A DNA stretch of 64,000 nt, from assembly GCA_001871905.1 (NCBI GenBank), contig MNUG01000032.1:1-64000 (forward strand), in the 5' to 3' direction. This document shows, piece after piece, positions 21,606 through 23,692 of the stretch. A model generated the notes under the pieces. That model was not told where the DNA came from. It ran no database searches and was given only the letters and a program-made list of their open reading frames with translations. Source of the DNA: Alphaproteobacteria bacterium CG1_02_46_17. Lineage in GTDB: Bacteria; Pseudomonadota; Alphaproteobacteria; Micavibrionales; Micavibrionaceae. Position 1 is the stretch's first letter; every line of letters starts with the position of its first letter. A program made the translations under genes and the position numbers.

Positions 21606-22220
21606 ATGGAACTCGCAATTCATGGAAAACAAATGGACGTCGGGGATGGACTTCGCACCCATGTCACTACAAAACTGGAGGAAATAAATTCAAAGTATTT
21701 TAATCGTGCAATTGATATTACGGTGACATTCGCACCAGAGGGGCATGCCTTTATCAAGACCCATGTATCCTTGCGCGTCGGAAAGGATATTCTGGTCACG
21801 GCACAATCTATCGAACCAGATGCCTATACGTCTTTTGACGTGACAGCAGAAAAAATTGCCAAGCAATTGCGTCGTTACAAACGCCGTCTGCGCGATCACC
21901 ATGAACGAATGGATCAAACACCGGAAACTGAAATGATGAAGGCCACGGCGTATGTTTTGGCAACTCAGGAGCTTTCCGGCAAAACCGAGGAAGAAGAGGA
22001 TGATATCCCTCAGGGTGAAGATCCGGTGATTGTCGCCGAGCAACCGATGCAAATCCAGAGAATGAGTGTCTCCGATGCGGTGATGCGGATGGATCTATCT
22101 GGCAACAATGCTATTTTGTTCCGCAACCCAAGAAACAATCATTTGAATATGATCTATCGGCGCGCCGATGGAAATATTGGTTGGGTTGAGCCTGAAGAGG
22201 TTGCTTCTGCGGCAGAATAA
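21606..22220 (+). CDS. hpf: Long-form ribosome hibernation promoting factor
   Basis: The 204-residue protein binds the 30S decoding region and causes ribosome dimerisation in slow growth. The N-terminal S30AE domain (residues 1-100) and the C-terminal dimerisation domain (about 140-200; RMSVSDAVMRMDLSGNNAIL and the closing NVIYRR-like HLNMIYRRADGNIGWVEP) are both present, joined by an acidic linker. Long-form HPF needs no separate RMF. The gene precedes ptsN, as in the conserved proteobacterial rpoN-hpf-ptsN order, but rpoN is absent here. A terminator separates it from ptsN. Confidence 0.95.
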   Translation: MELAIHGKQMDVGDGLRTHVTTKLEEINSKYFNRAIDITVTFAPEGHAFIKTHVSLRVGKDILVTAQSIEPDAYTSFDVTAEKIAKQLRRYKRRLRDHHERMDQTPETEMMKATAYVLATQELSGKTEEEEDDIPQGEDPVIVAEQPMQIQRMSVSDAVMRMDLSGNNAILFRNPRNNHLNMIYRRADGNIGWVEPEEVASAAE

Positions 22221-22278
22221 GTCCTGAAAATATTGCATAGCAATAAGTTCTGGTGAATTCATAAGTTGAAATTTGTAA

Positions 22279-22310
22279 AAAACAGCCTTGGGAACCGAGG
22301 CTGTTTTTTT
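22279..22310 (+). terminator. Intrinsic terminator after hpf
   Basis: AACAGCCTTGG, a GAA loop and CCGAGGCTGTT form a long stem ending in seven T. It separates hpf from ptsN, so the two are probably transcribed independently. Confidence 0.88.
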
Positions 22311-22423
22311 GTGACATTTTATCGCACCGCATCGTCTTTTTTTGTAGAAATGGGGGGCCAAACAAGTTACTAGGAAGTCGGAAATCAGAGTTTAGGTATA
22401 TCAAGATGAGAAGGGGCGCGGCA

Positions 22424-22891
22424 ATGTCATTGGGGGATGATTTGAGTATTACAAGTGTTCAATGCGACCTGAGAGGCGCAAATACCGAACAGATCCTGAA
22501 AAATCTTTCATGGAAAATTTCAAAAGATATAAATATGTCCGCCTCTGCAATTTTTGCGGACATCAGAAAATCAGAAAAGCGTGGCGATGCTGGAATTGGT
22601 GACGGTGTAGCTGTCCTCGACTGGACAAGTGTAGCACTTGAAGCCCCTTACGTTCTAGTCAGCCGACTGGAGACACCTTTAGACATGAAGACTGCTGACG
22701 AGAGACTTGTTGATCTTGTTGTGGTTCTAATTTCCCCCGAAAGCCAATCCTTAACCCATTTGCGACATGTCGCGCGCCTGACAAGAATGTTCAGCGAGGG
22801 GAGCCTGCTCGAGAATCTCAGATCCGTCAAGAACAACGATGGCATGATGGCAGTGCTCTCTTCCGAGAACGAAAGATTCCTTGCAGCATAA
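22424..22891 (+). CDS. ptsN: PtsN (EIIA-Ntr) homologue lacking the phosphorylatable histidine
   Basis: A product of about 155 residues with the PTS EIIA type 2 fold, downstream of hpf as is usual. The family active site GxGxAIPH reads GIGDGVAVLD here. Asp66 (codon GAC at 22619-22621) stands where the phospho-accepting His should be, and the next residues (WTS) also differ from the usual GK/AR. The C-terminal half (VDLVVVLISPESQSLTHLRHVARLTRMFS) is well kept. Phosphotransfer from NPr is therefore impossible by the known mechanism. The Asp may lock a phospho-like or an unphosphorylated signalling state. ATG 22424 behind AAGGGG is preferred to 22406. Confidence 0.82.
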   Translation: MSLGDDLSITSVQCDLRGANTEQILKNLSWKISKDINMSASAIFADIRKSEKRGDAGIGDGVAVLDWTSVALEAPYVLVSRLETPLDMKTADERLVDLVVVLISPESQSLTHLRHVARLTRMFSEGSLLENLRSVKNNDGMMAVLSSENERFLAA

Positions 22892-22898
22892 AATGGCT

Positions 22899-23663
22899 TT
22901 ATGCTGATTTATGACCACCAACCCATTCGATTCCATACCCAAAGGCACGATCCATTTCAGCATGGCCTGGAAAATATTCGGTATAGTTGGTAATCCTCAT
23001 GCCATCACGAACATTGTCAACTCCAGCAATGGCGCAAAGCCCCAACCCTTTTTGGTGAGAGGATAATGTCACCACCATCAGATTATTATCCGGGATACGA
23101 ATATGGATTTGTGGGCGAACCATAGCCCAATCATACGCGCCTTGGTAAATATAAACATAAATCAAGATACGTTTGATTTCCGGCCAATGCTTGCCGTTCA
23201 AATGGATAAATTCATCATCTCCTTGGACATTTCCTGTGCGCTCGTCCCCCGACAACGACAAATAGGGTGGATTGTTATAGGCTCCGAGGAGATCACCAAA
23301 GGCTTGGATTGCTCCACGCGTCCCATCTTTAAGCTCATATAAAATACCGAGATCAAGGTCGATATCAGCCGCCTTGCTGCGTTTAAACAAGCGCCCCAGA
23401 AGGCTTTGATCTTCAACCGTTTTATTATCCCAAGCAGCAGCAATGCGTATTTCATCAAACCCCCCGACAGGAGGGGAAACCGATAGGGTATCGTTACGCT
23501 TACCAAGAAAATCAGCGTTATTGGATTGATCGTTGGGATCAATATACCCTGCAGCCCCCAACGCGCGACCGTGGCCGGAGAATTCCGCCCGCCCACGCGT
23601 GGCCTCCATCATAGCATTCAAGGAACTTGTTTTGGTCGAGGAGCTCTTATTTTCTGTTGTCAT
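22899..23663 (-). CDS. TerD/TerA-like domain protein
   Basis: The 254-residue product has a Ser/Thr-rich, low-complexity N-terminal 50 residues and then a TerD-type domain: EIRIAAAWDNK, DIDLDLGILYELKDG, LSGDERTGNVQGDDEFIHL with the acidic calcium-binding cluster, and a DWAMVRPQIHIRIP strand. It most resembles TerA-type relatives. The ATG at 23663 behind AGGTGG is preferred over 23672. It ends eight bases from ptsN, tail to tail, and lies downstream of parB on the same strand, so it may be read through from the parAB transcript. Confidence 0.75.
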   Translation of the reverse strand: MTTENKSSSTKTSSLNAMMEATRGRAEFSGHGRALGAAGYIDPNDQSNNADFLGKRNDTLSVSPPVGGFDEIRIAAAWDNKTVEDQSLLGRLFKRSKAADIDLDLGILYELKDGTRGAIQAFGDLLGAYNNPPYLSLSGDERTGNVQGDDEFIHLNGKHWPEIKRILIYVYIYQGAYDWAMVRPQIHIRIPDNNLMVVTLSSHQKGLGLCAIAGVDNVRDGMRITNYTEYFPGHAEMDRAFGYGIEWVGGHKSA

Positions 23664-23692
23664 GGTATCCACCTAAATAGGTTATCTGGCGT

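Follow-up and report, generated by a model that had tools for sequence, protein, structure and literature searches.

How does a protein described as a phosphorelay's output fare when the histidine that accepts the phosphate has been replaced and nothing that could deliver the phosphate is in sight? The question is raised by one gene in the window, the term used here for the whole stretch of 64,000 nucleotides analysed (contig MNUG01000032.1 of Alphaproteobacteria bacterium CG1_02_46_17). A preliminary description of the locus reported a PtsN homologue with Asp in place of the phospho-accepting His. The gene concerned is the following.

22424 to 22891, plus strand: ptsN-like gene (EIIA-Ntr homologue), matching PF00359 at 7.3e-17 and TIGR01419 at 4.1e-15, the latter under the equivalog cut-off.

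The open frame, which is free of stops, extends from 22406 to 22891 on the plus strand and yields a product of 155 aa from ATG 22424 or of 161 aa from the in-frame ATG 22406. ATG 22424 is the most likely start because a relative that is 89% identical (Micavibrio sp. UBA6212, L069) reads ACG at the position of ATG 22406, and because AAGGGG stands before ATG 22424 in both the window and L069. It follows that the coordinates given in the preliminary description, 22424-22891, are good. The family assignment begins with Pfam PTS_EIIA_2 (PF00359), whose match is over the cut-off and covers residues 15-153 (numbered from ATG 22406), nearly the whole protein. Four sequences of solved structures are also matched (best 2a0j at 9.4e-11 and 1a6j at 1.2e-10), and all four are named PtsN or nitrogen-regulatory IIA. 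TIGR00848, the FruA-type EIIA model, matches at 7.8e-14. The window protein reaches 55.9 bits against the NCBIfam PtsN equivalog TIGR01419 and so misses its cut-off of 138.7 bits. Gene order adds to this picture.

21606 to 22220, plus strand: hpf, long ribosome hibernation factor, upstream of ptsN (S30AE 2.7e-17; C-terminal domain 3e-17).
22277 to 22309, plus strand: terminator-like hairpin and T run in the hpf-ptsN interval (folding energy -20.3 kcal/mol, z -5.0).

An hpf gene precedes ptsN on the same strand at 69 of the 90 loci of the window's family (coded f1) and at 16 of the 20 other loci of the order, some of the loci being short. This linkage serves as an orthology marker and points to PtsN identity. 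Judged by domain and gene order together, the ORF is a PtsN (EIIA-Ntr) orthologue. It is best classed as a variant PtsN rather than as a working component of PTS-Ntr, going by the defining phospho-site and the equivalog cut-off, both of which it fails. The hairpin between the two genes means that ptsN may have a transcript of its own. A pattern scan of 22000-23000 returned no sigma-70-like promoter and did not list the hairpin, which was found by folding. On the other side, between ptsN and parB, lies a gene on the minus strand (22899-23672) that is 96% identical in UBA6212 (dN/dS 0.05). It has no Pfam match at 1e-3 and resembles TerD-type stress proteins by eye only.

What exactly has happened to the active site? 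Four features are needed to answer this.

22592 to 22624, plus strand: altered active-site loop GIGDGVAVLDW where the family has GxGxGVAIPH (alignment, letters re-read).
22619 to 22621, plus strand: codon GAC for Asp66 (Asp72 from ATG 22406), aligned with the phospho-accepting His (110-row alignment, codon tally, letters re-read).
22571 to 22573, plus strand: codon TCA for Ser56 (from ATG 22406), replacing the active-site Arg, E. coli Arg57 (alignment).
22757 to 22759, plus strand: codon CAT for His118 (from ATG 22406), kept; counterpart of E. coli His120, the family's second His in the active site (alignment).

The alignment used for the phospho-site column compares the window protein with 109 homologues (110 rows). 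It confirms the central claim of the preliminary description: the motif GIGDGVAVLD is present, the D of VLD aligns with the family His (GVAIPH), and the phospho-accepting His of GxGxAIPH is missing from the window PtsN, with Asp in its place. Aligned with 1a6j, Asp66 occupies the position of His73 of E. coli PtsN. Other active-site residues have changed too. The Pro preceding the phospho-site is Leu, the conserved Thr just ahead of the GxG loop is Ala, and the active-site Arg is gone. At this last position Arg is found in 13/13 relay-bearing relatives but in only 11 of the 46 rows of family f1 that have His at the phospho-site.

Is a relay left that could serve this protein? The host genome (2.07 Mb, rated 99.87% complete) was expected by the preliminary description to be worth searching for ptsP, ptsO and a second, His-bearing ptsN, and none of these turned up. 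Profile searches of the genome gave no match to PF05524 (Enzyme I N-domain), PF00381 (HPr/NPr/ptsO) or PF07475 (HPr kinase), and a protein search gave no match to the divergent EI introduced below. The sole PF00359 match is the window ptsN, and there is no second EIIA-2 with His. A paralogue beside a true PtsN was considered and rejected. Of 14 named control genomes, 7, 7, 7 and 3 were positive in the searches with PF00359, PF00381, PF05524 and PF07475, respectively. A canonical relay hidden in the host genome is unlikely by these profiles, which very divergent proteins could evade.

For HPr, the same pattern extends across the family. The order-level sample comprised 142 genomes, 104 of them from f1, which we take to be the Micavibrio family, such bacteria presumably being epibiotic predators that belong with the alphaproteobacteria. 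NCBI taxonomy (taxid 213485) places Micavibrio under Bdellovibrionota. Across the order, PtsN matches occur in 111 genomes (one under the cut-off), EI N-domain matches in 30 (one under), HprK matches in 20 (two under) and HPr matches in 25. Within f1, PtsN is kept in 91/104 genomes and HPr is matched in 0/104. The reverse pattern is seen in genus g34 of family f3, where PtsN occurs in 0/8 genomes, EI in 8/8, and HPr and HprK in 7/8.

Enzyme I is a more complicated matter. To state that f1 has no EI would be wrong: weak PF05524 matches in 5/104 f1 genomes revealed a divergent Enzyme I, and the protein search then gave strong matches (E of 1.5e-31 or below) in 7/104 genomes (genera g5, g49 and g53) and weak ones (E 2e-8 to 1e-3) in six more, including G008 of the window's own genus. 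A representative is the Enzyme I-like protein at L136:1160-3124 (minus strand), with others in L139, L140 and L165 (PF02896, PF00391, PF05524). Its gene adjoins rapZ in genomes without an HPr match (confirmed by Pfam in L136 and judged by eye in L139, L140 and L165), and what by eye looks like the end of a histidine-kinase-like gene follows it in L136, L139 and L140. The EI-like gene has a stop inside in L141 (G096) and gives two separate matches in L135 (G104), as if decaying or frameshifted.

Could these PtsN proteins receive phosphate on Asp or His from another donor, be it a histidine kinase or, directly, the divergent EI? The seven strong matches, with the EI His motif seen in six of the seven genomes, and the six weak ones would suit such a donor, as would the persistence of His without HPr in 46/89 f1 rows. 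However, the host genome has no divergent EI match and the window protein has lost the active-site Arg. Furthermore, the strong matches are confined to the genera whose readable PtsN rows are Asp (g5, g49, g53), where a hidden relay would predict the reverse. We know of no precedent for an alternative phosphodonor of such a PtsN, and consider one very improbable here.

The residue at the phospho-site was then read across relatives. Where a genome of the order has EI as well as HPr, its PtsN row reads His (13/13). The 89 readable f1 rows (91 minus G091, a short frame at a contig end and under the cut-off, and G107, which has a gap at the site; a second, below-cut-off match in G041 was also excluded) are divided into His 46, Asp 31, Asn 6, Gln 2, Ser 2, Thr 1 and Ala 1. 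Seven rows from other families of the order without relay proteins have His 3, Ser 2, Gln 1 and Thr 1. His goes with the relay, at 13/13 vs 46/89 (Fisher p 0.0005, descent ignored). Nevertheless, its persistence without HPr in those 46 rows means that relay loss does not force Asp. In the HPr-less f1 rows, His may be held by something that is not canonical phosphotransfer. In these His-type rows, for example L010, L044 and L007, the active-site Arg is mostly lost.

Beyond the order the site is more uniform. At class level an EIIA-2 match was found in 153/212 genomes, and His is present in 50/50 of the sequences examined (30 best-scoring plus 20 chosen). Among 150 PtsN genomes from outside the family, nine have no HPr match, and the seven of these nine that were fetched, which are among the 50 sequences, all have His in an IPH motif. 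Since these 7/7 HPr-less genomes outside the order keep IPH, the Asp change is a feature of the order and not an automatic result of HPr loss.

In the window's genus, Asp occurs in 10/11 genomes, so it is not the error of a single strain. The preliminary description had asked whether Asp66 is fixed in the clade. In the genus it is not, as G008 has His, and His and Asp are found together within three genera (g1, g7, g43). Even so, Asp in 10/11 genus genomes vs His in 50/50 class-level sequences is recurrence beyond chance. Might the gene nevertheless be a pseudogene or a sequencing error? Its family score is weak for a PtsN, but the frame is open and without stops, the hpf-ptsN order is kept, Asp is common to 10/11 genus members, and dN/dS is 0.174. 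This explanation is barely credible.

The dN/dS value comes from a comparison of the window with UBA6212, in which the neighbouring genes gave 0.051 (murI), 0.055 (hpf), 0.052 (the hypothetical gene), 0.065 (parB) and 0.017 (parA). PtsN is therefore under purifying selection that is looser than that on its five neighbours. This bears on the statement in the preliminary description that the rest of the protein is intact. It is constrained, as dN/dS of 0.174 indicates, but less so than the neighbours at 0.017-0.065, and other active-site residues have changed.

How often has Asp arisen? A maximum-likelihood gene tree of 109 PtsN rows was built with IQ-TREE, leaving out the phospho-site column. 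The column was then placed on the finished tree, where it shows 18 changes, 16 of them between His and non-His and 7 between Asp and non-Asp (17, 13 and 7 on a quick tree), although these are short, fast-evolving proteins and many inner branches are weak. Fourteen of the 18 changes start from His, and six of the 14 lead to Asp. On the gene tree, then, Asp arose in parallel, about six times. This goes beyond the preliminary description: in a family with no HPr match, the window's Asp belongs to a set of about six parallel His-to-Asp changes. A share of 6/14 vs the 1/8 expected gives a binomial p of 0.005, a post hoc figure that assumes equal base changes and ignores the two steps needed for Ser, Thr and Ala.

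Retention of Asp once it has arisen was judged on tree-defined clades or whole genera only. The statements that Asp is invariant in the 31 Asp rows, and His in the 46 His rows, were discarded as circular because the rows had been grouped by that very residue. In the clade of the window, Asp is retained in 10/10 rows (support 100/99), and in a second clade defined by the tree it is retained in 15/15 (support 62/88). Fourteen of these 15 rows have a mean identity of 36% and only 8/142 invariant columns, and the Asp is one of the eight.

These counts bear on a rival explanation, that the site is relaxed. After loss of the relay, Asp, Asn, Gln, Ser or Thr would merely be tolerated, and PtsN would act constitutively through other surfaces, effectively as the unphosphorylated form. 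The 12/89 f1 rows with residues that are neither acidic nor His fit this, as do the loss of the active-site Arg and Pro and the fact that the dN/dS of ptsN is the highest of the six genes compared. There is also a model for it in Salmonella, where PtsN acts on PhoP independently of the phospho-site according to the accessible text of PMC6456747. Several observations do not fit. Asp is fixed in the two tree-defined clades at low identity (10/10 and 15/15) and is among the few invariant columns of the second, His or Asp accounts for 77/89 f1 rows, and none of the 14 changes from His leads to Tyr, Arg, Leu or Pro, which make up four of the seven residues that a single base change from His can reach. 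A relaxed site is possible, though on balance doubtful.

Alternatively, the pocket may have been repurposed, with Asp66, the second His (the equivalent of E. coli His120) and Arg127 forming a new site for a ligand, a metal or a partner and with no role left for phosphorylation. The equivalent of His118 is kept in 29/31 Asp rows vs 33/46 His rows (Fisher p 0.02, uncorrected for descent), Arg127 is found in 89/89 f1 rows, and Trp comes next after the Asp in 10/10 Asp-bearing genus members. However, Arg127 is frequent in relatives with the relay as well (11/13), and an AlphaFold prediction of the window protein with one relative has a mean pLDDT of 50 from this two-sequence input, inadequate for judging residue proximity. 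We regard a repurposed pocket as distinctly improbable.

The reading we favour, to which we give an even chance, is a PtsN uncoupled from its lost relay, unswitchable, still binding a partner and frozen by Asp66 in a phospho-like state, the last being the simplest account of that residue. Of its parts we infer the phospho-like state, the partner and the effect. In this reading ptsN would have been kept after the loss of the controlling phosphorelay (EI-Ntr, NPr/HPr, HPr kinase). The window PtsN would no longer be switched by PTS phosphorylation because, with no donor, it cannot cycle between phosphorylated and unphosphorylated forms. It would most likely still bind protein partners through the old active-site face, where the acidic residue present at the phospho-site could act as a permanent negative charge. 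Asp can be a poor mimic of phospho-histidine. The other active-site changes fit a rebuilt surface as well as they fit a frozen state.

In other species, whether EIIA-Ntr binds a partner can depend on the state of the phospho-site. In Caulobacter, as reported in the accessible portion of PMC4848567, EIIA-Ntr~P binds SpoT, the H66E variant binds SpoT whereas H66A does not, and H66E raises the G1 fraction without EI-Ntr. In E. coli it is the unphosphorylated PtsN that inhibits the K+/H+ antiporter YcgO (available text of PMC11808508). For R. leguminosarum, the part of PMC7617929 that could be consulted describes PtsN H66D as a phosphomimic that restores motility to a ptsN1 mutant. By analogy with Caulobacter, a plausible partner in the present case would be the bifunctional (p)ppGpp enzyme Rsh, the counterpart of SpoT. 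The host genome contains a full-length Rsh, whose domains are HD, synthetase, TGS and ACT (frame L250 487-2667). ACT-domain matches occur in 138/142 genomes of the order, whatever the PtsN residue, so the presence of Rsh discriminates nothing; it is compatible with the proposal and not supportive of it.

The uncoupled PtsN can be carried further. Perhaps the whole family dismantled the relay and about six lineages independently hard-wired its phosphorylated (nitrogen-starved) output by changing His to Asp, so that a global nutrient signal (perhaps its hold over Rsh) would stay in one position, as part of a Micavibrio-like and possibly predatory life. This is a tentative extension that we think rather unlikely. 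As for the preliminary description, which had the protein either locked in one signalling state or repurposed, the alternative holds as far as it was stated, and the sequence does not decide which branch applies.

Why does this matter? Some 90 species here keep PtsN, the described output of a phosphorelay, with no carrier protein found, and on the gene tree evolution has repeatedly made the same mutation that laboratories use to imitate phosphorylation. The locus is a natural example in which a phospho-histidine site has become acidic with its donor missing. Both the role of PtsN without phosphorylation and the question of which of its two states serves these cells become testable. There is some background in the literature. 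The accessible text of a 2008 PTS survey (PMC2405797) describes strongly correlated EI and HPr distributions, with sets that are incomplete or absent in a few, mostly specialised species, and that of a 2026 review (PMC13104625) mentions genera without PtsN or other parts. Neither text, to the extent available, mentions family-wide retention of PtsN without EI and HPr or a natural Asp at the site. A literature search whose scope took in few subscription papers found none joining Micavibrio with PtsN, and related papers do not treat this case in their titles and the beginnings of their abstracts.

How, then, does the window protein compare with known systems? It resembles the PtsN/EIIA-Ntr proteins of PTS-Ntr in E. 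coli, Caulobacter and Rhizobium in its EIIA-2 domain, the hpf-ptsN order and the second active-site His. It differs in having Asp for the phospho-His, in the loss of the active-site Arg and Thr, in a genome with no match to EI, HPr or HprK, and in a dN/dS higher than that of five neighbours. With FruA-type EIIA domains it has a Pfam domain in common, but no permease is attached, the genome lacks any match to HPr or EI, and the gene is linked to hpf. A further likeness is to the laboratory phosphomimics PtsN H66D of Rhizobium leguminosarum and EIIA-Ntr H66E of Caulobacter, which, as far as the accessible texts describe them, have an acidic residue at the phospho-His, H66D being the identical substitution. 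In contrast to these, the present change arose in nature, recurs, and comes together with other changes in the active site. A parallel is also found in eukaryotic kinases, where a phosphosite in the AGC hydrophobic motif has become a constitutive acidic residue in evolution (accessible text of PMC6969211). There the site is a Ser/Thr in a kinase, whereas here it is a phospho-histidine site of a bacterial relay.
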